From Actinomycetospora endophytica (GTDB taxonomy: Bacteria; Actinomycetota; Actinomycetes; Mycobacteriales; Pseudonocardiaceae): a stretch of 64,000 nucleotides of DNA. The position numbers and the translations under genes are program-made. Below the pieces are notes generated by a model. The model had not been told where the DNA came from. It made no database searches and saw only the letters and a list, made by a program, of their open reading frames with translations. This document shows, one piece after another, positions 6,318-56,491 of the stretch. Location of the stretch: positions 372,001-436,000 of the forward strand of contig NZ_JAJNDB010000004.1 of NCBI RefSeq assembly GCF_021026375.1, given 5' to 3'. Position 1 is the stretch's first letter; each line of letters starts with the position of its first letter.

Positions 6318-6540
6318 GGCGTCACGATAGCCGAGCGCTCCGGAGCCACTCCGGGTGCGTCGGAGGAACTATTTCCCCCCTTCCTGACGATTCCCTGAAC
6401 GCGTGACGCCGGGGCCCGGCGGATTCACCGCGTCCTCAGTTTCTTTTCCTAACGTCCTGCGACGTCGGACGGGTCGTCCGGGGGCTGTCGATCCTCGGGC
6501 ACGTCCGGCCTCGTCGATCACTTGAGAACCGGAGCTCTCC

Positions 6541-7005
6541 ATGCGCATCTCGTGGGCCCGCCCCGCGCTCGTCGCGGCCGTCGTCGTCGCCCTCGCCGGC
6601 GGCGGGACGGCCGTCGCCCTCGCGGACACCAGCACTCCGCCGACCACGTCCAGTCCCTCGGCCGCCCCGACCACCAAGGCCCCCGCGAAGAAGGCCCGCC
6701 ACCCCCTCGCCCGCCGGGTCGAGCACGGCGAGGTGACGCTGCACGGCAAGGCGGGCGACCGCACCGTCGACCTCCAGCGCGGGGTCGTCACGGCCTCGTC
6801 GCCGACGTCGGTCACGGTCCGCAGCACCGACGGCTTCACCCAGACCTACGCGTTCACCCCGACCTCGAAGGTCCGCAAGCAGAAGGCGGCGAGCCAGGCG
6901 TCGGCGGTGGCGGTGAACGACCGCGTCGGGGTCGTCGCGGCCAAGGGGGCGCAGGGGCTGACCGTCACGCGGCTGCGCGACGCCGGGCCGGCGCCGGCGA
7001 AGTAG
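6541..7005 (+). CDS. secreted small protein, DUF5666-like
   Basis: 154 aa with a Sec signal peptide (residues 1-28, ending near ALA) and a Thr/Ser/Pro/Lys-rich linker to ~55. A compact C-terminal domain follows (HGEVTLHGKAGDRTVDLQRG...SPTSVTVRSTDGFTQTY), resembling the OB-like DUF5666 fold. Function is unknown. It is monocistronic, followed by a 14-bp-arm inverted repeat that could terminate it. Confidence 0.7.
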   Translation: MRISWARPALVAAVVVALAGGGTAVALADTSTPPTTSSPSAAPTTKAPAKKARHPLARRVEHGEVTLHGKAGDRTVDLQRGVVTASSPTSVTVRSTDGFTQTYAFTPTSKVRKQKAASQASAVAVNDRVGVVAAKGAQGLTVTRLRDAGPAPAK

Positions 7006-7054
7006 GTCCGCCCCGGCCCCGCATCGGCCCGGCCCCGCGGCCGTGATCGCGAAT

Positions 7055-7095
7055 CGGGCGGCGAAGTGTTCGCTGGGCGAGCACTTCGCCGCCCG
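7055..7095. terminator. inverted repeat after secreted-protein gene
   Basis: Arms 7055-7068 and 7082-7095 (CGGGCGGCGAAGTG and its exact complement) around a 13-nt loop. An outer imperfect pair, GTGATCG (7043-7049) and CGATCAC (7101-7107), extends it. Its position 50 bp after a stop codon suggests an intrinsic, U-tract-poor terminator, though a regulatory site for the following protease gene is also possible. Confidence 0.5.
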
Positions 7096-7284
7096 AATGT
7101 CGATCACCGGCGTGGCGGTGGGGGGAACGGTGGATTCGTCATCCGACCGGGTCATCGGAGAGGTCGTGACGGGCGGCAGATTCTAGTCTGATCGGGCTGA
7201 TCGACGACGCCGCACGCCCTAGCGGACGTGCCCGTCGGGCCGGCCCGGTGCGGGTGGCGGCCCGGCTCGACCACGGAGGCCCGC

Positions 7285-8253
7285 GTGCGTTCCCCCCGCC
7301 CTCCCCGTCGCCGGATCCGCGCCCTCGTCCCCGGGCTCGCCGCGCTGGTCGCCGCCGTCGCGCTCGCCTCGCCGGCGCTCGCTGCCCCGACGCCCCCGCC
7401 GCTGCCGTCCGGGCCCGGGACGACGAGCCGGTCGACCCCCGTCGCGCCCCGCGCGGGGCAGGCGGCCAAGGCCCGGCTCGACGCCCGGCGGGCGACCGCC
7501 CCCGCGAACGTCACCGCCTGGTGGGTCGACCCCGGCACCCACCAGACCGTGGTCGCCGTCGTCGGGCCGACCACCCGCTCGGCCGGTGCGTTCGCCGCCG
7601 ACGACGACCCGTCCGCGGTCCGCGTCCAGCCGATGTCCGCGCCGATCCGCCCGCTCGACGCCCCGGCACCACCCGGCCCGCTGATCGGCGGGACCACGAT
7701 CACGACATCCGGGACGCGCTGCTCCGACGGGTTCTCCGCCCGCCGCGGCACGACCACCTACCTGCTCACCGCCGGGCACTGCACCGCCGAGGGCCGAACC
7801 TGGAACGGGCCCGACCGGCGGCCCGTCGGCACCGCGGTCCGCACCGACTACCCCGGCCACGATTTCGGGATCGTCCAGGTCACCAACACCGCCGTCTGGC
7901 AGGGGAGCGGGCGGATCCAGGGCGGGCCGACGATCACCGGCACGACCCCGGCGTCCACCGGCACCCAGGTCTGCCGCTCCGGGTCGACGTCGGGCTACCA
8001 CTGCGGCGTCGTGCAGGCCACGGACGTCACCGTGAACTACGGCAGCGGCACCGTCATCACCGGTCTCACCCAGACCACCGTCTGCGCCGACCCCGGCGAC
8101 TCGGGCGGGCCGTACCTCACCCCCGACTCCGCCCAGGCCCAGGGGACGCTCTCCGGCGGGACGGGCGACTGCGTGGCCGGCGGCACCACCTACTTCCAGC
8201 CGATCGCACCGGTGCTGGACTCGATGGGGCTGACGCTGGTCACGGGACCGTGA
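7285..8253 (+). CDS. secreted trypsin-fold serine protease, streptogrisin-like (S1E)
   Basis: 322 aa from the GTG at 7285, which has GGAGG five bases upstream; the longer frame starting at 7228 lacks a site. A signal peptide (RIRALVPGLAALVAAVALASPALA) precedes a short pro-region and the mature protease. The catalytic triad is visible: His in LLTAGHCTA, Asp in GHDFGIVQV, Ser in CADPGDSGGPYL. Cysteine pairs flank the His and Ser blocks as in streptogrisins and alpha-lytic protease. It is predicted to be an exported, self-processing endopeptidase. Its 3' end overlaps the convergent phosphorylase gene by 14 bp. Confidence 0.88.
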   Translation: MRSPRPPRRRIRALVPGLAALVAAVALASPALAAPTPPPLPSGPGTTSRSTPVAPRAGQAAKARLDARRATAPANVTAWWVDPGTHQTVVAVVGPTTRSAGAFAADDDPSAVRVQPMSAPIRPLDAPAPPGPLIGGTTITTSGTRCSDGFSARRGTTTYLLTAGHCTAEGRTWNGPDRRPVGTAVRTDYPGHDFGIVQVTNTAVWQGSGRIQGGPTITGTTPASTGTQVCRSGSTSGYHCGVVQATDVTVNYGSGTVITGLTQTTVCADPGDSGGPYLTPDSAQAQGTLSGGTGDCVAGGTTYFQPIAPVLDSMGLTLVTGP

Positions 8254-23641: not shown

Positions 23642-23714
23642 GTGGCCTACGGCCCCGTGAGCACTCATTGACGCCATAGCGTCCCTGAGTGCTCACGGGC
23701 GCGAAGCGCACCTA
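23639..23714. repeat. palindromic gene-end element, copy A
   Basis: Core arms GTGAGCACTCATTGACG (23657-23673) and CGTCCCTGAGTGCTCAC (23680-23696), loop CCATAG, two mispairs. The right flank is GGGCGCGAAGCGCACCTA. It lies between convergent genes and supplies both stop codons: TAG at 23639-23641 and, on the minus strand, TAG at 23714-23712. Probable bidirectional terminator. Confidence 0.85.
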
Positions 23715-24911: not shown

Positions 24912-24969
24912 GTGAGCACTAATCGTCGTTATAGCGTCAATTAGTGCTCACGAGCGCGAAGCGCACCTA
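24893..24969. repeat. palindromic gene-end element, copy B
   Basis: Arms GTGAGCACTAATCGTCG (24912-24928) and CGTCAATTAGTGCTCAC (24935-24951), loop TTATAG. The left flank is GAGGTGCGCTGACGCGCCT, the right flank GAGCGCGAAGCGCACCTA. The minus-strand TAG stop of the poxB-like gene is the last triplet (24969-24967). Confidence 0.85.
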
Positions 24970-47055: not shown

Positions 47056-47089
47056 GTGCCTGCGGCTCGTGAGCACTTTCGGTGGCTAT
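47053..47089. repeat. palindromic element E, left half (split by insertion)
   Basis: TAGGTGCCTGCGGCTC flank, then arm GTGAGCACTTTCGGTGG (47069-47085) and loop bases CTAT. The matching right half is at 56453-56491, 9.4 kb away. Confidence 0.85.
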
Positions 47090-47113
47090 GACACCAGCGC
47101 ACTACGCACTCAC
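47069..47113. other. attL of the integrated element
   Basis: Left of the AT at 47088-47089 is the chromosomal half-site (19 nt ending GGTGGCT). Right of it is the element half-site 47090-47113, which ends in ACTCAC and is the imperfect complement of the attR element half-site (15 of 24 positions). Confidence 0.75.
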
Positions 47114-47227
47114 AGGGCGATGGTGCCGTGACCAGCGAGGATGGCTAGGACCAGCCTCGCGCCACACCGAGGACGGACAGCCCTCGCCCTTCGGCTCGGA
47201 ACCTGCGCCACGTCCGCAGTAGCCGTG

Positions 47228-47422
47228 TCATGGGGTGAGGGTCCCACCGGGGTCCGGATCGTGCTGCCACATGGCCGCGTCGACCTCCGTGGCGGTTGGC
47301 ACCGGGACGCCTACGTGGCGGGCCAGTCGCTCGACGTTGGCGGCGACTCTCGCGAGGGAGCGGTCCAGCGCCCGCGTCTGCTCGCTCGGCGACATCTCGC
47401 GCCAATACGCCGGGATGGTCAT
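47228..47422 (-). CDS. small hypothetical protein (element)
   Basis: 64 aa from the ATG at 47422 (upstream frame to 47458 lacks a site). Reads PAYWREMSPSEQTRALDRSL, then ARVAANVERLARHVGVPVPT: a charged amphipathic helix. No family recognised. First gene inside attL. Confidence 0.5.
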   Translation of the reverse strand: MTIPAYWREMSPSEQTRALDRSLARVAANVERLARHVGVPVPTATEVDAAMWQHDPDPGGTLTP

Positions 47423-47464
47423 GCCTGAGACGTTAGCGCCCGCGACGCGGTACCACATAATGCG

Positions 47465-48232
47465 TCAAGGGACACTGCGCCTTCCTCGCAGCTTCGCGCC
47501 GACCCACCGCGCGCCTCTGACCGCCCGCCGGGATAGCCGTTCCAGCGCAAAGGCGAGAGGCTTCTCGTACCACCGGAACGACATCCCGAAGATCGGCCGT
47601 AGAGTCCACTCCCACCATCGCCAAAGCACGTATCCCCGTACATCACGGCGAGCCGCCCGGCTTTGGGTGCTCGTGAGCTTCGCCGTCGTCGTGTCGCGAA
47701 TCCACGATCTACCCGCGTAGTCAGCGAAGGCCACCCAGTGTCGTTCAAAGTCGACGTTCGGGTGTTCTGATAGATCGAATGCTAGAAACGCCTGTGTATC
47801 GGCTGGCATCGCGAGATCGACCAGCACGGGGAAGTCGTTTGGCGTGTCGTAGCTCATCGCCGAGCGGGTGTATGCGAGCTTCCCTGCCTTTTCACCCTCG
47901 CGTCCAGTGGCGCGAGTGTACGTGCGGCGCTCACGCCTCGTCATCGGACGACTCACGACTCGAAGCCCAAAGATCGGATATTCCGATCGGTTATGGACCC
48001 TGATAGTGGCCTTGCTCAGCACTCGCGGTCCTTCGGACCAGAGTGAGGAACCAGGAGTAACAGTGGAAGCCACCGTGGCATCAAGCCATGCGATCACTTT
48101 CTCAGCTTCGCTCCGCTGACTTTGACGTCGGTCACGAAGAATGATGTAGAACGCCATCGCCGTCGAGAAGCCCAGAAGAACGGCTGAAATGAACGGTGGG
48201 AGGACGGACTCCCAGCCTGGAGCTGAATTCAT
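47465..48232 (-). CDS. single-pass membrane protein of unknown function (element cargo)
   Basis: 255 aa. One TM helix near the N-terminus (FISAVLLGFSTAMAFYIIL, residues ~13-31) followed by a soluble region: VIAWLDATVASTV, a beta-rich domain ATIRVHNRSEYPIFGLRVVSRP ... ERHWVAFADYAGRSWIRDT and a basic C-terminus. The middle part resembles immunoglobulin-like or C2-like beta folds only in general. Lower GC and mixed codon use indicate foreign origin. It may be a defence or exclusion factor, but this is inference from position only. Confidence 0.6.
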   Translation of the reverse strand: MNSAPGWESVLPPFISAVLLGFSTAMAFYIILRDRRQSQRSEAEKVIAWLDATVASTVTPGSSLWSEGPRVLSKATIRVHNRSEYPIFGLRVVSRPMTRRERRTYTRATGREGEKAGKLAYTRSAMSYDTPNDFPVLVDLAMPADTQAFLAFDLSEHPNVDFERHWVAFADYAGRSWIRDTTTAKLTSTQSRAARRDVRGYVLWRWWEWTLRPIFGMSFRWYEKPLAFALERLSRRAVRGARWVGAKLRGRRSVP

Positions 48233-48265
48233 CTCATTGCTCCTTCGTCAGGCCCAGACCGATTC

Positions 48266-48541
48266 CTACCGCCCGGGGTCGCGGCGCCCCGTATCGCCAA
48301 CGACGCGCGCGACCGTGTTCCGGTGGACCCCTGCGCGCCGCGCGATCTCGACATGGGACACGCCGACGGCGTCCGCGTCGCGCATCGCCTGCCGCAGGTC
48401 CTCGTCGGCGGCGTCGTAAGCGCCCCTCGCTTCATCACGTTTCCGGGCGGCAGCCTCTAGCGCCGTCCGGGCGTCGTCGCGGTCCACCACAGGACCATCG
48501 CACCTGCACTGTGCGTGGTCACTCTGGTGCTGTCTATGCAT
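48266..48541 (-). CDS. small HTH protein (element)
   Basis: 91 aa from the ATG at 48541. N-terminal coiled region (ARTALEAAARKRDEARGAYDAADEDLRQAMRDA) and C-terminal helix-turn-helix (VSHVEIARRAGVHRNTVARVV). Likely a DNA-binding regulator of the divergent gene(s) at 48571 onward; the start codon lies within a set of TAGTGCACTG repeats that could be its operator. Confidence 0.65.
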   Translation of the reverse strand: MHRQHQSDHAQCRCDGPVVDRDDARTALEAAARKRDEARGAYDAADEDLRQAMRDADAVGVSHVEIARRAGVHRNTVARVVGDTGRRDPGR

Positions 48542-48563
48542 AGTGCACTGCGGTAGTGCACTG
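48541..48563. promoter_or_regulatory. tandem AGTGCACT operator-like palindromes
   Basis: TAGTGCACTG at 48541-48550 and again at 48554-48563, 13 bp apart; a related TGCACTGTGC word lies at about 48505. They sit between the HTH gene and the rightward cargo genes. Confidence 0.5.
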
Positions 48564-48570
48564 TCGCGGA

Positions 48571-48810
48571 GTGAGCCTCTTCCACCTCCACGCTCGCCTC
48601 TTCGAGGGCACGCTCGACGCACCCACGCGCAACGAACTCCAGAGCGCAGAGTCAGACGACCGCGATCACCTCGCTCGCCTCGCAGATGACCTGTCCACAC
48701 GAGGCTTCTCCGTGTGGCTGTACGAACATGGGGCTCCCAAGACCGGGAACCGAGCCGGGGCATATCGAGTCGTCGCCGAGTGGAGGCCGGGCGGGGAGCG
48801 CGTCCGGTAG
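48571..48810 (+). CDS. small hypothetical protein upstream of PIN gene
   Basis: 79 aa from a GTG at 48571 (an in-frame GTG at 48556 also possible; no clear ribosome site, so perhaps leaderless). Reads SLFHLHARLFEGTLDAPTRN, ADDLSTRGFSVWLYEHGAPK, AYRVVAEWRPGGERVR, a compact alpha/beta pattern. No family recognised. It ends 51 bp before the PIN gene and may form a unit with it. Confidence 0.5.
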   Translation: MSLFHLHARLFEGTLDAPTRNELQSAESDDRDHLARLADDLSTRGFSVWLYEHGAPKTGNRAGAYRVVAEWRPGGERVR

Positions 48811-48861
48811 ATCGACAAAATCCGCTCGCAGCCTGGCGCAAGCGAGATCTACGATCCGGCG

Positions 48862-49842
48862 GTGCTCCGACTGCTCATCGACACGTGCATATGGCTCGAC
48901 ATCGCGAAAAACCGCGAAGGACGGAAGGTGATCCACCCTCTCGCCTCGCTGGTCCTAAACGACATGATCGACCTGATCGTGCCGGGCGTTGTCCGCGAAG
49001 AGTTCCAACGCAACCGGCCTAGAGCAGAAGACGCCGTCAGCAAGCAGGTCCAAGACCGAGTCCGCGCGATTCGTCAAGACATCCGCGAACACGGCGGGGT
49101 AGCGGCGGGCGACTGGATCGACGAGCTCAACCATCAGGTCCCATTCCTTAGCGCTTCCGCCGTTCAGAATTTCGCCGAGATTGACGATCTATTATCAAAA
49201 GGGCGCCCCGTCGAGTTCTCGGAAGACGTCCGGAAGCAAGTCATCCACAGAGGGCTCGCTAAGCAAGCCCCGTTTCTGGAGAAGAACTCCACTGCCGACG
49301 CCCTCCTAATCGAATGCTTCGGAGAGGTGACCCGGCGAGAAGGGGGTGCGCAGGATGAGTTTCTTTTCGTAACAAGCAACTCGCGGGACTTCTCTGCGAG
49401 GGGTGGCGATCAACGAGTGCCTCACCCTGACATCGCTGAGTTTTTCAAGGAACCGAACGCCCACTACATCTACGGTGCAGAGACGCTGGCTACGACTCTT
49501 CGAGAGTTGATACCGGAGTACGAGGAGCTAGAGGCCGAGGCGGAGGCATTCGACGAGGAACCCCGAACTCTCGCGGACATCGTCGCCGCGGAAAACGAGC
49601 GATTCGACAAGATTTGGTACGTACGCTCGCTAATCGGTATCGAGAAGGAGGAGAGAGGCGAGGAGTCGCCGCCGCCGCCCGATATCGTAACCGGCAGGGA
49701 CACCAACATGCGTCGCGTGATCGCGAAGTACGGCGCTGAGAACGTCGGTCCCTGGGATCATTGGCACTGGGGCTATATCCACGGCGAGCTATCAGCGCTT
49801 CGCTGGGTCCTCGGCGAAGACTGGGGATTCCTCGACACGTGA
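48862..49842 (+). CDS. PIN-domain ribonuclease-like protein (element cargo)
   Basis: 326 aa. Residues 1-180 form a PIN-like domain: first Asp in LLIDTCIWLD, Glu in VVREEFQRN, Asp in NSTADALLIEC and the last Asp in LFVTSNSRDFS, the expected acidic tetrad. A ~140-residue C-terminal region (LRELIPEYEELEAEAEAFDE, DHWHWGYIHGELSALRW) is unassigned. The length and layout fit DUF4935-type PIN proteins more than small VapC toxins. It contains a TTA leucine codon at 49192-49194, rare in such genomes. Probable RNase with a defence role for the element; the role is inference. Confidence 0.7.
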   Translation: MLRLLIDTCIWLDIAKNREGRKVIHPLASLVLNDMIDLIVPGVVREEFQRNRPRAEDAVSKQVQDRVRAIRQDIREHGGVAAGDWIDELNHQVPFLSASAVQNFAEIDDLLSKGRPVEFSEDVRKQVIHRGLAKQAPFLEKNSTADALLIECFGEVTRREGGAQDEFLFVTSNSRDFSARGGDQRVPHPDIAEFFKEPNAHYIYGAETLATTLRELIPEYEELEAEAEAFDEEPRTLADIVAAENERFDKIWYVRSLIGIEKEERGEESPPPPDIVTGRDTNMRRVIAKYGAENVGPWDHWHWGYIHGELSALRWVLGEDWGFLDT

Positions 49843-50203
49843 GGCGAGGAAGGCCACCGTTGGGTGTCTCCGTCTAGATGGCACAGTCGGCAGGATCTAA
49901 GCAAACGCCGCGCGACCCGGCCGCCGGTCTAGAAGGTCCCTCAGTCTGAGCGACCTTCTAGAACAGTCGCCCGAGAGCGCTACTGTAGAAGGTCGCGCCG
50001 ACGGCGCGGACTTCTAAAAACCGCAGGTCACGGCACGCTCGGGACTCAGCTCCGCTACTCACAGTGCGCCGGCTCAACCGGCGGGTCCGTTGTCGTGGTC
50101 CGAGGTCAAACGTCTGTTGTCCAAGGTCCGCGCTAGAAGGTCCGTCCAACGGACGGACCTTCTACCTCGCCCCGCCCGACCGTCCCCAGACCCGTAGACC
50201 GCC
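49843..50203. other. non-coding region with three TAGAAGGTC hairpins
   Basis: HP1: TCTAGAAGGTC 49928-49938 with GACCTTCTAGA 49952-49962. HP2: TAGAAGGTCGCGCC 49986-49999 with GGCGCGGACTTCTA 50003-50016. HP3: TAGAAGGTCCGTCC 50134-50147 with GGACGGACCTTCTA 50151-50164, perfect with a 3-nt loop. All share the outer stem TAGAAG(GTC). The region is flanked by the ends of convergent genes. Candidates: origin iterons, packaging signal, small RNA or terminator array. Confidence 0.6.
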
Positions 50204-50359
50204 ATGAACACCCGCGACCTTCACGCCCGTGTACGCAACGAGGCACAGGACGCGCCGAGGGCCGAATGGGCGGGGCAGGGGGTCGGGTACCCGGAATTGC
50301 CATGGCGCGATCGGAATGGGGCCGGAGTGCCTTCCGACCTTCCGGAAGAATCGGGGTGA
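50204..50359 (+). CDS. possible small ORF (element)
   Basis: 51 aa from ATG 50204: MNTRDLHARVRNEAQDAPRA then EWAGQGVGYPELPWRDRNGA and a short acidic end. No ribosome site of note and no family. Listed because the codon choice is reasonable; it may be chance. Confidence 0.25.
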   Translation: MNTRDLHARVRNEAQDAPRAEWAGQGVGYPELPWRDRNGAGVPSDLPEESG

Positions 50360-50360
50360 A

Positions 50361-50417
50361 GTCGATAGCGGGTGCCTCGTGAACGTGGCCGCGTAAAGCG
50401 AGGCACTCGCTATCGAC
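50361..50417. terminator. 19-bp-arm hairpin downstream of the capsid gene
   Basis: Arms GTCGATAGCGGGTGCCTCG (50361-50379) and CGAGGCACTCGCTATCGAC (50399-50417), one mismatch, 19-nt loop. It lies 57 bp beyond the capsid stop in the direction of transcription. Terminator is the default reading; the long loop leaves room for a recognition site. Confidence 0.65.
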
Positions 50418-50473
50418 GGAGCAGTCGAATGCGTATGTCTGCTTACGCGACGATTGCTGCTCGGGAATGCTAC

Positions 50474-51454
50474 TTACTTGCTCGTCTTCGATGCCTTCGC
50501 ATTCGACAGATGCGTTCCCGACGCAGGTGCGAGCACACCGACCGGGGTGGCGATAACGCCGCGATTGGTGATTGGCTTAGCCGTCGCGACGCCTAGACGC
50601 ATGACTGCACGCATGACACGGCTGTCCTGCTGCCACGCTGAGAATGTGACTTGGCCGGTGCTCGGGTCGACAATGGTCGCGCTGTCCGACGAATCCACCG
50701 AAATGTCTTGGCGGACGCCGATGATGATTTTCGAGAAGTCACCGGCAACGCATTCCGCTTGCGTGTCGTCCCATCCGTTCGGGCAGTCAACCAGCGGCAG
50801 CCCGGCCACCGACATTCCGACCGGCTTACCATCGGCGATGGGGTTGACCTGGGCGAGAGTCGCGGAGGTATTCGCGGCCAGAGCGTCGAGCGTGAATCCC
50901 GGCCGGGTGACAATCTGCGTCGGCGACAGGCCGGTACGGGCGACAGTGGACGCCGTTTGAATGGCCTCCGAGAAGTACGACGCGGGGTCGCCGGACGCCG
51001 TAATCACCTGACCGGCATTCGTCGCCTCGGCGACAAGTCCGGGGGTAGACCACACCGACGGCCGGTCAATTCCGAAGAACACGGCTGCGTCGATTTTCTG
51101 CGCGAACGCCGCTGCGATCTGATCCTTAATCGAGCTGTAGATATCCCAGTCGGTATCCGCGACGATAGCGTCCGGAATGACGCAGAGCGTTGCCAGCTCG
51201 GCCATGACGATGTGTTCCGGCGTCCAGTCAGGCTTACTGACCGGCTTATACGCGGTGTCGCTATTCGCTAGCCAACCGGCGGTGACGGCGCTCGACAGGA
51301 TCGGGACGACTTGATCCTGAGTGGTGACCGGGATTTTGGTTGCGTATTGCATTGCTACCGATTGCTCGGCGATGAGCCCGGTGATTTCTTGCGCAATCGG
51401 CTGGGGAAGATCGGCGCCGGTGTGTGCGCGCTGGGTGACGTCGGTAGGTGCCAT
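50474..51454 (-). CDS. HK97-family phage major capsid protein
   Basis: 326 aa. The course matches HK97 gp5-type capsids of actinophages: N-terminal arm, QYATKIPVTTQDQVVPILSSAVTAGWL (E-loop/strand region), AELATLCVIPDAIVADTDWDIYSSIKDQIAAAFAQKIDAAVFFG (long spine helix, read in parts), and a P/A-domain end with IIIGVRQDISVDSSDSATIVD and AVMRLGVATAKPITNRGVIATP. There is no fused protease or delta domain. No portal, protease, terminase or tail genes accompany it. An encapsulin is less likely because of the integrase and replication context and the absence of a cargo gene. The C-terminal tail is Ala/Ser/Lys-rich. Confidence 0.85.
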   Translation of the reverse strand: MAPTDVTQRAHTGADLPQPIAQEITGLIAEQSVAMQYATKIPVTTQDQVVPILSSAVTAGWLANSDTAYKPVSKPDWTPEHIVMAELATLCVIPDAIVADTDWDIYSSIKDQIAAAFAQKIDAAVFFGIDRPSVWSTPGLVAEATNAGQVITASGDPASYFSEAIQTASTVARTGLSPTQIVTRPGFTLDALAANTSATLAQVNPIADGKPVGMSVAGLPLVDCPNGWDDTQAECVAGDFSKIIIGVRQDISVDSSDSATIVDPSTGQVTFSAWQQDSRVMRAVMRLGVATAKPITNRGVIATPVGVLAPASGTHLSNAKASKTSK

Positions 51455-51795
51455 TTAGAATGTCCCTTTAGGCGGGCACGCGGAACTAGGCCGCGTGCGT
51501 TACGCGGATTGATCTCACGTCGAATGCCGCCGCCGGGGCGCATTACCGTGCGCGGTCGAGCACTCCGATTCGGGCCGGAGCGGGCCCACCCGTGCAGTGG
51601 GTGTCGTCGACACCCACTGCTAGACGGCCGCCGCCAGGGGCGGCCTAGAAGCCCTCGTCGATGGTCGGCGGGGTCTTCTACTGGCCTGCCTCCGGGGCGG
51701 GCCGGTGTGCGGTCCACGGCCGCGTTCCCGAAGGTGACCCGAACGTCGGGAGGAGGTCCGGGTCATCTAGTCGCGGCCGTGAACCGACGGAAATG
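51455..51795. other. 341-bp leader of the capsid gene with two hairpins
   Basis: No credible ORF. A 13-bp-arm palindrome GCAGTGGGTGTCG (51594-51606)/CGACACCCACTGC (51608-51620) with a 1-nt centre is followed by GGCCGCC...GGCGGCC (51626-51645), enclosed by CTAG/CTAG-like ends. This may be a terminator for the upstream small gene, a capsid-gene operator or a translational control element. Confidence 0.5.
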
Positions 51796-52047
51796 CTACT
51801 CGGCATTCTCGCCGGAATCGCTGATTCCCTGCCGATAGGTCCGGCGCTGGATTCCGACTGGCTCACCATCGGGCCCTGTGAGCGTCTCTGTCGTGCTGAA
51901 TGCGCCGTCGAGCACTACCGGCGCCATCTCGAGCGCTGGGCTGTCTGCGTCGCTCTCAGGGCCGGGAACAATGTCACGGGGGACCCGGTTCGCTCTCGCC
52001 CATTGAATCGCGTCGATGGGATTCGGAAACTCTGGACTGCTCGCCAT
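51796..52047 (-). CDS. small acidic hypothetical protein upstream of capsid
   Basis: 83 aa: MASSPEFPNPIDAIQWARAN, RVPRDIVPGPESDADSPALE, then APVVLDGAFSTTETLTGPDG and a short polar end. Composition looks genuinely coding. No family recognised; a head-associated or decoration-type protein is possible but unsupported. Confidence 0.5.
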   Translation of the reverse strand: MASSPEFPNPIDAIQWARANRVPRDIVPGPESDADSPALEMAPVVLDGAFSTTETLTGPDGEPVGIQRRTYRQGISDSGENAE

Positions 52048-52204
52048 GAATCCAACTTTCTGCGTTGCGGACCCAATTACCTCGGAGCTGCTCCCGAGCC
52101 CATTTCTCGACCAGGTACCGGCGCACCCGACCCGAACCGCATTCCAGCTCGGTCAATTGGCCCGGCCGCCGACGCGGTAGTGAATAGCTCACACCCGTAA
52201 GCAT
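51974..52204 (-). CDS. possible small basic protein (element)
   Basis: 76 aa from an ATG at 52204. The middle, QLTELECGSGRVRRYLVEKW then AREQLRGNWVRNAESWIHGE, looks like an amphipathic helical protein. Its last 74 bp overlap the start of the next small gene in another frame, so either may be spurious. A competing frame (TTG at 52349 to 52077) is also open. Confidence 0.3.
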   Translation of the reverse strand: MLTGVSYSLPRRRPGQLTELECGSGRVRRYLVEKWAREQLRGNWVRNAESWIHGEQSRVSESHRRDSMGESEPGPP

Positions 52205-52211
52205 GCCCAAC

Positions 52212-52259
52212 CGGAACGACACTTCCGGGCGAGCCGTCCCTAACGGAACGACACTTCCG
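52212..52259. repeat. direct repeat of CGGAACGACACTTCCG
   Basis: Two identical 16-bp copies, 52212-52227 and 52244-52259, 32 bp apart (about three helical turns). Each is itself an interrupted palindrome CGGAA-N6-TTCCG. A related CGGGAA-N5-TTCCCG lies before the XRE gene (54697-54713). Likely a regulator-binding site for the capsid-side transcript. Confidence 0.55.
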
Positions 52260-52391
52260 ATTGGGTATCGCCCGGCCGCTGATATATTCGGTCACGGCAT
52301 CCCGCTCGATTACGCAGGGTGTGCCCGGCTCCGGTTCCCGGGTTGGCAATCAGGTGCGCCGGGCCCGATCGGTTTCCCTGTGCGCACCGCC

Positions 52392-52444
52392 CGAAGGGAG
52401 CGAAGGGGGCGGGCCTCATGAATCCGCTCCCTTCGCTCCCTTCG
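52392..52444. terminator. 16-bp-arm hairpin spanning the AAA gene stop
   Basis: Arms CGAAGGGAGCGAAGGG (52392-52407) and CCCTTCGCTCCCTTCG (52429-52444) are perfect complements; the AAA-ATPase stop codon (52416) is in the loop. The same sequence forms a second hairpin inside the gene at 53517-53569. Confidence 0.6.
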
Positions 52445-53726
52445 CGCTCCCTTCGGGGGTCGAAAGTGCGGGGTCGGTCCAGTGCCAGCCACCGGACATG
52501 CCGACTTTTTCGGCGACGAGTCCGAGCCGCTTCTTCGCGCGTTTGACCTGATCGCGGCTGTATCCGAGTTGTCCAGCGGCGCCAAAAGCGTCCTTTGCTG
52601 CCACTGTCCCGGCCCGGTCGGCGATCACCCCAGACAGCCACATCTCCACTTCCCGGCGTTCGTCGTATTCGTCATCGGAACGGTTCAGGAGATCAGCGGC
52701 GCGATGCGGTGACGCCTCGCCCCACACAACGCGGGCGGCGTCGGTGCCGGTGTCTCCGTCGAGTCGGTATTTCAGGCTGTCCGGTTCCGATCCTCCAATA
52801 TTGAGTTTTACGCACGCGAGGACGCGGCCGGTGTCGTCGTCGGGATCGGCGCCGACGACGTATCCGGCGCGTGCGGCGCCGACGATTCCGATAGAGCCGC
52901 CGCCCCGATACATCGGCGAGGACCCCGAACCGCCTTTGTTCAGGTGACGGAGGAGAAGAACCGTGGCGCCGGTATCGTCGGCGATTTCTGCGACTCCATG
53001 GAGAACGGAGCGGACGTCCTGGTCGCTATTTGCGTCCCGCCCAGCCGGTAGATAGGCCATGAGTACGTCGACGACGAGAAGTCGCGCGCCAGTGTCCTCG
53101 ATAGCGCTTCGAATGATTCCAGTATCGGCGAGAGTGACGGGTCGGGTGACGGTTCCGTGGTCGGCGCTCGTTTTTACGGCGGTGAGTGCGTGAATGCGGG
53201 ACGGGTCGGCGCCCGCTGCGTCCAGCCGGGGCCGCATCGTGTCGGCCAATCCGTCCTCTGCGCTGAGAATCAGCGTGTCGCCTTCCGGGCACTGTGCGCC
53301 GTCGGGCCAAGGCCGTCCCCTAGATAGGTGCGCGGCAATCGTGAGCGCGATGGTGGATTTCCCGAGTCCGGGGTCTCCGTCGAGAGTGACGAGTTTCCCG
53401 GCGGGAATGCGGCCGTTCCAGAGCCACGTGACCGGTTCGGCGATGACGCTGTCGAGTCGGACGATCAGCGGCAGCGGGCCTCTCGCGGTGACTTCTTCCC
53501 GCTCCGAAGGGAGCGCCGAAGGGAGCGAAGGGAGCGCGTTTTGCGGGCCTGCTCCCTTCGCTCCCTTCGGGCGGCCGGATCGTCCACTGGTCGCCTGTCG
53601 GGAGGCTGCCTCGGCCGGTTCGTCGGGGACCGTCTCGGCCTGCTCCGCGCGCCGCTGCGCGTACTGGCGGGTCAGCCGCTCGCTGACTTCCCGGCCGCGC
53701 TGCGTGTCGGGCCGCCGGGCCGTCAT
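52416..53726 (-). CDS. RepA/DnaB-like AAA ATPase (replicative helicase candidate of the element)
   Basis: 436 aa from the ATG at 53726, which overlaps the upstream stop (ATGA). Residues 1-90 are a basic, low-complexity region with PKGAKGAGPQNALPSLPSAL. A RecA-fold ATPase follows: Walker A GDPGLGKST (117-125), ILSAEDG, Walker B RLLVVD (215-220), LLLRHLNKGGSGSSPMYRGGGSIG. The C-terminus has a winged-helix-like stretch (QLGYSRDQVKRAKKRLGLVAEKVG) and ends in EGSAKGAKGADS. This layout matches RepA-type hexameric helicases of plasmids and satellites, so autonomous replication of the excised element is likely. Confidence 0.78.
   Translation of the reverse strand: MTARRPDTQRGREVSERLTRQYAQRRAEQAETVPDEPAEAASRQATSGRSGRPKGAKGAGPQNALPSLPSALPSEREEVTARGPLPLIVRLDSVIAEPVTWLWNGRIPAGKLVTLDGDPGLGKSTIALTIAAHLSRGRPWPDGAQCPEGDTLILSAEDGLADTMRPRLDAAGADPSRIHALTAVKTSADHGTVTRPVTLADTGIIRSAIEDTGARLLVVDVLMAYLPAGRDANSDQDVRSVLHGVAEIADDTGATVLLLRHLNKGGSGSSPMYRGGGSIGIVGAARAGYVVGADPDDDTGRVLACVKLNIGGSEPDSLKYRLDGDTGTDAARVVWGEASPHRAADLLNRSDDEYDERREVEMWLSGVIADRAGTVAAKDAFGAAGQLGYSRDQVKRAKKRLGLVAEKVGMSGGWHWTDPALSTPEGSAKGAKGADS
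53517..53569. repeat. 19-bp-arm inverted repeat inside the AAA gene
   Basis: CGAAGGGAGCGAAGGGAGC (53517-53535) and its exact complement (53551-53569) with a 15-nt loop. Both arms are in frame and encode the KGAKGA and LPSLP peptides. It has the same core as the hairpin at the 3' end of the gene. Confidence 0.65.
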
Positions 53727-54127
53727 GCGCGCCACCGCCGTAGTGCCCTCTGGCGGGCGGTCTCGCGGCCCGTGGCGCCATTCTGGGGTGAGGACACCGG
53801 CGAGGGTGTGCGCGGCCCGGAGGGGATCTCCCAGGGGCCGGGGGTGAACGGGACGGGGGCGCCGCTGTGGTCGCGCAGCACCGACGCGGCGTCGCGGTAT
53901 GTGAACCGGGGCCCTTCGGTGAGTCGCCACGACTGTCGGGGCGGGTCGAGAGGCTCACGGCGCCCGTCGGCGAGCGGAGAGCATCGCCACGACGCGGTCC
54001 GACGCGTCCGAAGCGGATTCGGGTTCCCGGTAATCTCGCGGTCGATCGGAGCGGCGTGGTGGCGGCATTCGGTCGGAGGGGCGACCCGAGTAGCGGCGGG
54101 CCGCCCCTCTGCATTTCTCGGGTTCAT
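53723..54127 (-). CDS. hypothetical protein in coupled operon (element)
   Basis: 134 aa. ATGA overlaps at both ends (start with the 71-aa gene, stop with the AAA gene) make it a real gene. Basic, Pro/Arg-rich; segment SWRLTEGPRFTYRDAASVLR then DHSGAPVPFTPGPWEIPSGP looks folded, the rest disordered. No family recognised; a replication accessory is possible. Confidence 0.6.
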   Translation of the reverse strand: MNPRNAEGRPAATRVAPPTECRHHAAPIDREITGNPNPLRTRRTASWRCSPLADGRREPLDPPRQSWRLTEGPRFTYRDAASVLRDHSGAPVPFTPGPWEIPSGPRTPSPVSSPQNGATGRETARQRALRRWRA

Positions 54128-54339
54128 TCGGGGTTCTCCAGTCGCGTCCGGACCCGGTCCATGACGCCGCGAATGACGCGGACTTGCTGCTCGGTCAAAG
54201 GCGGGGCGTTATCGAGCAGCTCACGAAATCGGGGATTCGCCCGCACCATCTCGACCCCTCGTCGGAGACGGTCCAATTCAGGGTCGACGGGCGTGGGCTG
54301 GTTTTCGTCGCCGACGGGATCGTGGTCGCCGCGACTCAC
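54124..54339 (-). CDS. small helical hypothetical protein in coupled operon (element)
   Basis: 71 aa from a GTG at 54339 overlapping the XRE stop (GTGA). Helical: PELDRLRRGVEMVRANPRFR then ELLDNAPPLTEQQVRVIRGV. No family recognised. Position between repressor and replication genes is typical of early operons. Confidence 0.6.
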   Translation of the reverse strand: MSRGDHDPVGDENQPTPVDPELDRLRRGVEMVRANPRFRELLDNAPPLTEQQVRVIRGVMDRVRTRLENPE

Positions 54340-54665
54340 CGGACGTGGCTCGTCGCGTCGTATGAACCGATGATTTCGCGGGCCGCGTCGTCCAACTCGT
54401 CGTCAGACATCGGACGCGAATGGCGCATCACTCCGGCGCCGTACTCGCGGAATCGGTCGACGAATTCCCGATCGAATTCGCTCGGGTGCACGGCGAGAGC
54501 GGCGGCCAGGTAGTAGATGAATCGGTCGGACGGAATCGAGATGCCGTTCTCCCATGACTTGACGGCGTGGGTGGTGCAGCCGATTCGCGCGGCCAATTCG
54601 GCGCGGGTGAAGTTTTGTCCGTCGCGCAGCCCGCGGACCCATTCCCCCGAAAAGCGTTTCTCCAT
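54336..54665 (-). CDS. XRE/Cro-CI-type repressor of the element
   Basis: 109 aa from the ATG at 54665, which has GGAG nine bases upstream; the in-frame TTG at 54686 lacks one. HTH_3 domain: VRGLRDGQNFTRAELAARIG, CTTHAVKSWENGISIPSDR, FIYYLAAALAVHPSEFD. First gene of the coupled operon with 71 aa, 134 aa and AAA genes. A CGGGAA-N5-TTCCCG palindrome 32 bp upstream is a likely autoregulatory operator. Confidence 0.8.
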   Translation of the reverse strand: MEKRFSGEWVRGLRDGQNFTRAELAARIGCTTHAVKSWENGISIPSDRFIYYLAAALAVHPSEFDREFVDRFREYGAGVMRHSRPMSDDELDDAAREIIGSYDATSHVR

Positions 54666-54696
54666 TGGTGTTATCTCCATCGGCAAATCGATATCG

Positions 54697-54713
54697 CGGG
54701 AATTGGCTTCCCG
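54697..54713. promoter_or_regulatory. operator-like palindrome before the XRE gene
   Basis: CGGGAA (54697-54702), TTGGC, TTCCCG (54708-54713). Same half-site style as the CGGAA/TTCCG repeats at 52212-52259, so one repressor may bind both. Confidence 0.5.
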
Positions 54714-54823
54714 GTGACCGATAGGAGATTACAAGAATGCCCGTCGAGTCACGCAGGCTCGAAATCGGCAGTGGCTGTGTACTTGAGAGGGTCCTAGGGC
54801 GCGATTCTGGTGCAACAAGGAAA

Positions 54824-54858
54824 CGGCCGGGGTGACACGTGAAGTGCCACCCCGGCCG
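54824..54858 (-). terminator. intrinsic terminator of the integrase gene
   Basis: Arms 54824-54838 (CGGCCGGGGTGACAC) and 54844-54858 (GTGCCACCCCGGCCG), one mismatch, loop GTGAA. On the minus strand it is followed by TTTCCTTGTTGC, a T-rich tail. Confidence 0.8.
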
Positions 54859-54904
54859 TGATGTCTCGTCGGCGAGCGGAGAGCGGTATCCGGCGAGCGG
54901 TAGC

Positions 54905-56425
54905 TCAGTCCTCGGCGGTCCGCCACTCCACACGCACTCGGTCCGCCGGGTCCGCCCCGCCGGGCCGTCCCTGTCCAGGGCCCACTGGCAGGATCGTCAC
55001 TCTCGCCGCCGCGTCCAATACGGTGCGCCGTTCCGTCGTGTCGGCGCCCGCCCACCACACCTCGAATCCGGGTCCCGCGTTTTCGGTGAGAAGCGTCGGA
55101 AGGTGTCGGGGGCGGGCCGCTGCCTGCGCGTCGGCCATTCGCTTCTCCCAGCCTTCGCGGAATGCCGCGAAGTCAGCGAACGTGACTGCGCCCGCACTGG
55201 CACCGGCCCGCCATTGCGCTAGCTCCGCGTCGAGATCGGCCACCTTCGCAGCCGCATCCGTTTGAGCGTCGGTGCGGTCGTTGCGCGAAAGACGAATGAC
55301 TGCGTCCGGCGACGACAGCCGCGCGATAAGCAGGCTTTCGACAATGGTGTCCGCCTGCTCCTGACCGATGCTCGCCTTATGGCACGCCCGGCACGAATAG
55401 CGCGGCGAACGGTCGGGGCGCGGAGTCGATTTCATCCGGCCGTCGCAACCGTCACGGCCGCACCGGTAAATGCCCGATCCCAGGTGAGCTGTCCGGGTGC
55501 CGTTGCGGTGCTTATCGCGCTCGGGGTCGCCGTATAGCGCGACGATCCGGTCGTGGTCCTCGGCGGAAATGATCGGGTCCCAGGTTGCCCGGACATCGGT
55601 GGCCTCGCCGCGAAACAGGCGCAGCCCGGCGATGGCGGGATTCCTCGCGGCACGCGACACCCCGACGCCGTTCCATTGCGCGCCTTTAGCGGTCGGCACC
55701 CCGCGTCGGTTCAAGTCATCGGCGATTGCCTTCGCGGCGTCACCGGCGAGCAGTCGGGCGACGATCTCGCGGACGATCGGCGCCGTTTCCGGGTCTTCCA
55801 CCCGGTCCACCGTGCGGCCCCGGTCATCGCGCACAATCCGATACCCGTAGGGCACTGCGCCGTGAGGGGCGCCCTGATTCGCGCGGGAACTCACCGAACG
55901 CTGCACCTTCTCGGAAATGTCGGCGGAGAGTTTCGCGGCGAGCAGGCCGTCGAGGCCGATATAGAACGAGCCGTCCGCAGTGGCGGGGTCCCGCAATTGA
56001 CCGCCATAACCGATCTTCACTCCCTGCGCGGTACAGGCTGCCTTCAGAGCGGCGGTGACCTTATCGTCGCGACCGGCGCGCGAGTAGTCCCAAACGAGCA
56101 GGGCACGGACCCCGCCGCGCTCGATATGCGCAGTGGCTTCCTTCCACCCCGGGCGTTCCTTGCCCTTCGCGTACTTGGACGCGCTGATCCCGTCGTCGCG
56201 GCATTCGGCGACGACGGGCCACCCCTCTCGGTCTGCCCACGCGCGCAGATCACGGAGCTGGTCGTCAACGCTCTTGGACTGCTCGCCGCTGCGCTCCGAC
56301 GACACCCGGCCGTAGATGACGACCGGGTGCCGTGGCGGGGTGGCGCTGCCCCGTCCTCGCGGGGCCGGGACGGCCGTGGACAGGGCGGTGGTGGGGTGGG
56401 TGGTGGCCTCGCGGGTGATCGTCAC
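54905..56425 (-). CDS. large serine recombinase (integrase)
   Basis: 506 aa from a GTG at 56425. Resolvase-type catalytic domain at residues ~34-180 with the nucleophile Ser42 in IYGRVSSERSGEQSKSVDDQ and the later arginines of DYSRAGRDD. A recombinase domain follows (GAPHGAVPYGYRIVRDDRGR), then a zinc ribbon (CGRDGCDG...YSCRACHK), a coiled coil (AQTDAAAKVADLDAELAQW) and a C-terminal segment. This is the domain order of phage large serine integrases such as phiC31/Bxb1, which join simple attP and attB sites. It starts 4 bp from the attP half-site at the right end of the element. Confidence 0.92.
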   Translation of the reverse strand: MTITREATTHPTTALSTAVPAPRGRGSATPPRHPVVIYGRVSSERSGEQSKSVDDQLRDLRAWADREGWPVVAECRDDGISASKYAKGKERPGWKEATAHIERGGVRALLVWDYSRAGRDDKVTAALKAACTAQGVKIGYGGQLRDPATADGSFYIGLDGLLAAKLSADISEKVQRSVSSRANQGAPHGAVPYGYRIVRDDRGRTVDRVEDPETAPIVREIVARLLAGDAAKAIADDLNRRGVPTAKGAQWNGVGVSRAARNPAIAGLRLFRGEATDVRATWDPIISAEDHDRIVALYGDPERDKHRNGTRTAHLGSGIYRCGRDGCDGRMKSTPRPDRSPRYSCRACHKASIGQEQADTIVESLLIARLSSPDAVIRLSRNDRTDAQTDAAAKVADLDAELAQWRAGASAGAVTFADFAAFREGWEKRMADAQAAARPRHLPTLLTENAGPGFEVWWAGADTTERRTVLDAAARVTILPVGPGQGRPGGADPADRVRVEWRTAED

Positions 56426-56428
56426 CCC

Positions 56429-56473
56429 GTGAGTCTAGAGAGAGCAGATGCCATAGCCACCGAAAGTGCTCAC
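56429..56473. other. attR of the integrated element
   Basis: Element half-site 56429-56452 (GTGAGTCTAG... to GATGCC), AT at 56453-56454, chromosomal half-site from AG to GTGCTCAC at 56473. Confidence 0.75.
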
Positions 56474-56491
56474 GAGCGCGGAGCGCACCTA
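56453..56491. repeat. palindromic element E, right half
   Basis: Loop bases ATAG, arm CCACCGAAAGTGCTCAC (56457-56473), flank GAGCGCGGAGCGCACCTA. The last triplet is the minus-strand TAG stop (56491-56489) of the monooxygenase gene. Confidence 0.85.

Follow-up and report, generated by a model that had tools for sequence, protein, structure and literature searches.

Our analysis of a 64,000-nucleotide stretch of the Actinomycetospora endophytica genome (contig NZ_JAJNDB010000004.1, positions 372,001 to 436,000; hereafter 'the window') suggests to classify a mobile element of 9.36 kb at ~47088-56454, inserted between two convergent genes of this soil actinobacterium, as a satellite akin to the phage-inducible chromosomal islands (PICIs) that brings its own shell protein, a reading to which we assign a probability of about one half. 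The element encodes a single HK97-fold major capsid protein along with a large serine integrase, an XRE-type regulator and an AAA_25 ATPase, and since small elements of this sort are also present in mycobacteria and in bacteria related to the host, it has the appearance of a phage parasite with a shell protein of its own. This classification draws on precise ends and an empty site, on open frames for integrase, regulator, AAA_25 protein and capsid, on elements of similar size and content at other sites in relatives, on TerS (small terminase subunit), scaffold and connector genes among these, on the clustering of lone capsids in trees, and on the presence of the shell of SaPI1 (a Staphylococcus aureus pathogenicity island, SaPI) among the close folds.

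Gene content, ends and integration site

The composition given in an initial annotation of this DNA (integrase, XRE regulator, replication gene, one capsid gene and cargo, with no terminase, portal, protease or tail gene) is borne out by Pfam, PHROGs and profile searches. The G+C content of the element is 65%, vs 73% elsewhere in the window. Read from right to left, its genes encode the serine integrase, the XRE protein, a 71-aa protein, the AAA_25 protein, an 83-aa protein and the capsid; leftwards beyond the capsid follow hairpins, a PIN_12 gene on the opposite strand, a helix-turn-helix (HTH) protein and two genes of no assigned function. The features are as follows (TerL and TerS denote the large and small terminase subunits).

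47065..47114, no strand: attL, a host palindrome half (47065-47090) followed by the attP inner arm; assigned from the inverted repeat, the inner arms and the empty site in G009
47228..47458, minus: orf76, no assigned function; coding score only, no Pfam/PHROGs family at E up to 0.1
47465..48232, minus: orf255, no assigned function; open frame, no Pfam, PHROGs or PADLOC family, not picked by the coding score
48266..48490, minus: HTH DNA-binding protein, 74 aa; phrog_7061 6.3e-8, no match to the TerS profile
48862..49842, plus: PIN_12 domain protein, cargo; PF16289 8.6e-15, no PADLOC family
49924..50164, no strand: three hairpin repeats lying where the PIN and capsid genes converge, with a probable role as two-way terminators; repeat family D2, inverted pairs I5-I7
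50474..51454, minus: major capsid protein of HK97 fold, encoded by an intact frame of 326 aa; PF05065 1.1e-19, phrog_10 3.5e-27
51796..52047, minus: orf83, upstream of the capsid, no assigned function; no family, tblastn finding itself alone in fetched loci >4 kb
52416..53930, minus: AAA_25 RepA/helicase-like ATPase; PF13481 1.7e-32, phrog_906 1.1e-18; longest frame, the true start may be internal
54124..54339, minus: orf71, start overlapping the XRE stop by 4 bases; open frame and coding score, no family above cut-off
54336..54686, minus: XRE-type regulator; HTH_3 1.1e-8, HTH_31 1.8e-7
54905..56425, minus: large serine integrase, 506 aa; PF00239 1.3e-21, PF07508 5.3e-13, phrog_95 6.5e-81
56422..56477, no strand: attR, the attP inner arm followed by the second host palindrome half; assigned as for attL

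Among the ten element proteins, terminase, portal, protease and tail families were not detected at E up to 0.1 in Pfam and PHROGs (the HTH gene being taken in a longer 191-aa frame), and profiles for TerL, portal, scaffold, connector, major tail protein (MTP), tape measure and TerS yielded nothing better than E 0.05 over element frames of at least 25 aa, the lowest score among the head and tail profiles (MTP, 0.052) falling on the capsid itself. Profiles for a concealed scaffold or TerS gave nothing better than E 0.2 in the window, and rolling-circle Rep and FtsK-type translocase families were matched by none of the window's ten proteins in Pfam or PHROGs. Remnants of terminase, portal or tail genes, which the initial annotation had named as evidence that would speak against a satellite, were not found inside the boundaries with these profiles, which are not universal: since they score only part of 142 loci (TerL 41/142, portal 68/142), divergent versions could be missed.

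An inverted repeat of 26 nt without mismatches, GCTCGTGAGCACTTTCGGTGGCTATG, occupies 47065-47090 at one end and 56452-56477 at the other and is nested in a 56-nt inverted pair that is 80% complementary; the repeats enclose 9,361 bp (47091-56451), and the ten listed genes make up 75% of the element. Judged from the sequence, the repeat marks attL and attR: the outer arms of the ends are halves of a host palindrome (GTGAGCACTTTCGGTGGCTAT/ATAGCCACCGAAAGTGCTCAC), and the inner arms are alike at 19 of 30 positions, a likeness that only 2 of 20,000 arm pairs picked at random from the element attained and that is expected for the attP of a serine integrase. If the crossover is correctly placed at the AT of 47088-47089 and 56453-56454, the element measures 9,365 bp, and the boundaries 47088-56454 first proposed fit this placement; the crossover bases may be AT or TA, because the palindrome sequences vary between species.

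The site is empty in the relative G009, where the two flanking genes, of zinc-finger anti-sigma type (PF13490, 1.3e-5) and luciferase-like monooxygenase type (PF00296, 6.4e-72), are adjacent and the palindrome is uninterrupted but imperfect; this comparison covered 13 other loci and reached ~1.5 kb beyond the gene, the left flank also being seen only in G009. We take integration of the element to be shown by the sequence. The target of the integrase is the centre of the host's intergenic palindrome, which recurs at 37 other places of the genome (0 in a reversed-pattern control) with a CTAT centre and with inner arms that are varied and mostly still paired. As the 26-nt repeats are halves of this palindrome, with 37 other copies and an uninterrupted one in G009, terminal inverted repeats of a transposon were rejected as an explanation. 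The integrase also provides an example of a large serine recombinase whose insertion site is a repeat scattered over the genome. A parallel is found in phiRv1, which is located in the REP13E12 repeat (PMC9317374), although target repeat and host differ.

The 40-bp palindrome family (GTGAGCAC...CTAT...GTGCTCAC) occurs at 23657-23696 and 24912-24951 of the window and at 35 further places in G000, the genome to which the window belongs. Its members are probably two-way terminators and possibly candidate landing sites for the integrase. A second element on contig C13, where two palindromes are present, was rejected; both are plain intergenic copies.

The capsid protein and its relatives

The Phage_capsid family (PF05065) spans residues 16-290 of the 326-residue capsid protein, and AlphaFold2, provided with 35 other capsids in the alignment, predicts an HK97 fold with a mean predicted local distance difference test (pLDDT) score of 84.3. 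The best match among solved structures in Foldseek is the capsid of mycobacteriophage Muddy (8edu, E 7.9e-25), followed by the SaPI1 particle capsid (8vd4, 1.3e-15) and HK97 (2.5e-10), with encapsulin 7lil at rank 37; a profile of 36 capsids compared with solved chains likewise matches 8edu (1.9e-128) and the 6b0x group (2.1e-35), which includes SaPI1 entries and thus places the SaPI1 and window capsids in the same fold family. Identity to phage capsids is at most 33% for the window capsid (best 15 of 596 matches) and at most 38% for that of locus L011 (among 80 matches listed; best 15 of 560). Ratios of nonsynonymous to synonymous substitution rates (dN/dS) are 0.36-0.65 in the six pairs among the L011, L012, L051 and L052 capsids, but as they reach 0.46-1.00 in five comparisons with a prophage capsid, the measure is close to saturation and we count it as weak. 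Taking a Muddy-like head of triangulation number T=7 with a 48-kb genome as reference, and provided that the capacity for DNA rises with the 1.5th power of T, 9.4 kb would be predicted to suit a T=3-sized shell.

Used alone as query, the window capsid found no match in the species collection, an alignment being needed to recover relatives. Within the bacterial family, 25 of 297 genomes matched at 27 capsid places, of which 20 have both TerL and portal in their neighbourhood and seven have neither (the window, L011, L012, L013, L043, L242 and L246). A search of the same 297 genomes with the L013 capsid gave 10 places in 10 genomes, none with TerL or portal by these profiles; among them are L264 with a longer capsid, L260 with a partial integrase and L265, which is cut by a contig end. 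Among 394 genomes representing the class, 25 contained matches, 32 places in all; the 20 places fetched comprise 12 without TerL and portal and eight with one or both. At the order level, 3 of 397 genomes, the window's own included, matched the L011 capsid at E 1e-30, and plasmid records contained no match to it.

Among 73 proteins (own gene calls) from nine lone-capsid loci, no terminase or portal appears in the best 25 of 33 Pfam families, the remaining eight being, to judge from the ranking, single matches none stronger than 2.7e-5; the PHROGs scan of the same proteins (best 25 of 102 families) cannot prove absence. The profiles for TerS, second-clade scaffold, and serine and tyrosine integrases were seeded from members of the set, so that seeds match by construction, and the TerS and scaffold calls were cross-checked with PHROGs and by leaving one out. 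As to labels, 'phage' could stem from a scaffold match alone (L127, a 70-kb viral contig with no other module, was treated as phage), and L305 was labelled solo despite a tape-measure match, as were L051 and L052 on short or cut contigs. Since the capsids of L265 and L052 lie 1.3 kb and 0.6 kb, respectively, from contig ends, genes may be missing there.

A 46-row mixture-model tree unites the capsids of the window, L011, L012, L051 and L052 in a single clade (ultrafast bootstrap/SH-aLRT 100/99), which is recovered again in a 53-row tree. There, the lone-capsid labels require 5 changes compared with a mean of 17.8 after shuffling, and none of 500 shuffles was as low. The rows of this tree stem from searches for which lone capsids had served as seeds, and the duplicates L049, L050, L057 and L063 were omitted from one of the trees built. 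The capsids of the full prophages sampled fall outside this clade, and the nearest to the window by tree are other lone-capsid loci; a decayed copy of a full prophage, the alternative that the initial annotation had thought fit to refute it, is thus not what the tree suggests. The exact placement of the window is less sure because its branch is long (1.66 in the 46-row tree). A second group is mixed, in that its lone loci are interspersed with a few that have TerL or portal, indicating that some gain or loss has happened.

The search of related genomes that had been proposed did return AAA_25 plus lone-capsid elements of similar size in two Actinomycetospora relatives, L011 and L012, which have direct-repeat ends, AAA_25, one capsid and TerS, with a connector in L012. 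L011 (Actinomycetospora lutea) is a 9.83-kb element with 58-bp direct repeats (96.6%) and a tyrosine integrase, inserted at a methyltransferase gene (PF08241, 5.7e-21); L012, with a 75% repeat ~10.15 kb apart and a tyrosine integrase by profile, likewise lies at a methyltransferase gene. L013 (~9.2 kb from reading both ends) has a serine integrase and sits at the start of a low-molecular-weight phosphatase gene (PF01451, 1.3e-35). Their TerS genes match phrog_1496 (L011 1.7e-8, L012 6.9e-5, L013 5.1e-23), and each is still recovered by the TerS profile when itself left out. The second clade often has a scaffold gene directly before the capsid (phrog_4708 in L242, 2.4e-7, L261, 2.6e-4, and L263, 2.9e-5; phrog_15003 in L246, 2.7e-5; no PHROGs scaffold family in L262), and connectors were found in L012, L043, L263 and L265.

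Several observations on these loci stand on their own. L011 carries a DndB-like cargo gene (6407-7555; PF14072, 4.8e-8). Just upstream of the capsid, L012 (10358-10744) and L051 (2895-3119) encode a small protein that is 42% identical over 60 residues. L264 (7832-10184) combines a head-maturation protease (phrog_80, 1.5e-36), a 436-aa capsid and a serine integrase; the profiles used here detect neither terminase nor portal in it, and the arrangement is possibly phiRv1-like.

Satellite reading, known systems and rival explanations

If the element is a satellite, infection by, or induction of, a helper phage would relieve the repressor, and the element would then excise and replicate with the AAA_25 protein. 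The capsid protein would build a satellite-sized shell, while scaffold, portal, terminase motor and tail would come from the helper; the shell protein may additionally compete with head assembly of the helper. Excision, replication, shell building and packaging are all inferred.

PICIs possess a packaging redirection gene (TerS or an equivalent), and TerS without TerL is a PICI habit. SaPIs and classical PICIs remodel the helper capsid by small proteins (CpmB, Rcm) and are not known to have a capsid gene of their own. The window's element has its own integrase and attachment site and, with XRE and AAA_25 proteins whose roles follow from their families, a regulator and a replication gene; no TerS was found in it, whereas L011, L012 and L013 possess one. 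With no TerL, portal or tail found, it is not an intact prophage in the sense used for candidate PICIs (PMC10654092), and it resembles SaPIs and classical PICIs in integrase, regulator and replication gene. It would share with them an action on capsid assembly (PMC12409344). Capsid-forming PICIs (cfPICIs) share a satellite-encoded capsid but carry a complete head and packaging module of capsid, protease, portal, connectors and both terminase subunits, of which only the capsid was found in the window (PMC10690885). The Streptomyces phage satellites MulchRoom and MiniFlayer are likewise actinobacterial with their own capsid gene, yet they also encode a portal, a scaffold, an adapter and the two terminase subunits, while an obvious replicase is absent (PMC10690885).

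Elements combining integrase and capsid have been described in Mycobacterium, as prophage-like elements (PMC3986857) and as 'candidate PICIs' that include phiRv1/phiRv2, have a serine or tyrosine integrase and in some cases carry helicase, terminase or scaffold genes (PMC10654092). The kind is therefore already known; while boundaries, empty site, satellite-like gene set and relatives of similar size favour the satellite reading of the initial annotation, its view of the composition as unusual is not supported. phiRv1 is 9.3 kb long with a serine recombinase, and the four assigned genes of phiMmcs_2 are a major capsid, a phiRv1-type integrase and two HNH endonucleases (PMC3986857); phiRv1 is likened to the window's element by size, integrase and location in a repeat, and phiMmcs_2 by its capsid and integrase genes. 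The candidate PICIs are from Mycobacteriaceae, whereas the window's element, in which no terminase or scaffold was found, is from Actinomycetospora and lies in a dispersed palindrome; induction of the candidate PICIs was not shown in that report (PMC10654092). Actinobacterial prophage elements of <15 kb have been said to be potential satellites, integrase plus one structural domain being counted as 'intact' (PMC10023795). As far as our searches show, and within the literature searched, the novelty here lies in an element of the capsid-only form from a host other than a mycobacterium, in the clades formed by lone capsids and in the palindrome as integration target. This indicates that satellites bearing a capsid yet devoid of portal or motor also occur beyond the mycobacteria, and it provides hosts of other kinds, Actinomycetospora lutea among them, in which lone-capsid function could be probed.

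More tentatively, and with somewhat less confidence than in the satellite reading itself, shell-only satellites may constitute a class of their own, namely old actinobacterial lineages with an own-sized shell (capsid, sometimes scaffold, connector or TerS) that would rely on helpers for portal, motor and tail. In that case the element of the window would be a minimal form, and phiRv1/phiRv2-like elements may share the lifestyle.

A number of observations weigh against a satellite building its own shell. Since profiles found no TerS, scaffold or connector in the window's element, no other member of the set has so poorly documented a route to packaging, and a shell devoid of its own portal would have to fit that of the helper. 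Pfam gives little for the scaffolds of the relatives (24.7 bits vs a cut-off of 35 for PF06810 in L246; no match in L242, L261, L262 and L263), and L260 (9264-10872), where a lone capsid adjoins a tyrosine integrase of which only the C-terminal part is present (158 aa; PF00589, 5.6e-15), is perhaps a remnant. Moreover, a helper with a matching head was not found in the genome, prophages without a phrog_2-like TerL not having been sought. The one TerL of the genome (by phrog_2; none by PF03354) belongs to a prophage on contig C9 (L317, L318; from ~1.815 Mb) with tail sheath and tape measure; when compared as the initial annotation had proposed, its head protein proved to belong to a different family (phrog_752), and BLASTP showed no similarity between it and the window capsid. 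This prophage has its own serine integrase, which is 28% identical to that of the window.

The lone capsid could instead be an interference gene whose subunits poison or misdirect the heads of an infecting phage, the element travelling in unaltered helper particles. We consider this rather unlikely, even though the capsid is retained while portal and terminase motor were not found, and a SaPI protein that binds the helper capsid protein also inhibits the helper (PMC12409344). Poisoning by co-assembly favours close resemblance to the helper, so that the distance of the lone capsids from the phage capsids listed, as given above, counts against it, and several members of the second clade also bring a scaffold or connector. 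Less probable still is a decayed prophage in which genes for integrase, replication and capsid survived by chance. Related capsids do occur in full prophages of the same family (the 20 of 27 places), a quarter of the element (25%) lies outside the ten listed genes, and L260 does resemble a remnant, but the key frames are open, the ends are precise, a similar size recurs at unrelated sites, and the lone capsids cluster rather than being scattered among phage capsids (5 changes vs 17.8, 0/500, among rows found with lone-capsid seeds). As these capsids form their own lineages, the gene is probably kept for a purpose.

Rolling-circle Rep and an FtsK-type translocase characterize actinomycete integrative and conjugative elements (AICEs). 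Capture of a capsid gene by such an element is very improbable and for the window mostly refuted, its ten proteins matching neither family, although L051, a 10.1-kb Pseudonocardia contig, has its lone capsid near a replication initiator (PF23343, 7.7e-11) and an FtsK-type translocase (PF01580, 8.5e-9), and L261 apparently has both as well, judged from gene list and family counts. We would expect even less a domesticated, encapsulin-like shell forming a protein compartment: a single HK97-fold shell gene devoid of portal or tail would agree with it, as would the encapsulin in the fold list, but the best fold matches are phage capsids, the sole Pfam shell model matched (PF05065) is that of a phage capsid, no cargo enzyme was recognized adjacent, and the gene lies inside a mobile element.

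Minor features of the element

Five of the window's proteins (PIN, orf255, HTH, orf76 and orf71) had no PADLOC match at E 0.01. Within the AAA_25 gene, an inverted CCGAAGGGAGCGAAGGGAGC-type repeat occurs twice, at 52391-52447 (gene end) and 53516-53574 (first half), and is perhaps an origin or a coding repeat.

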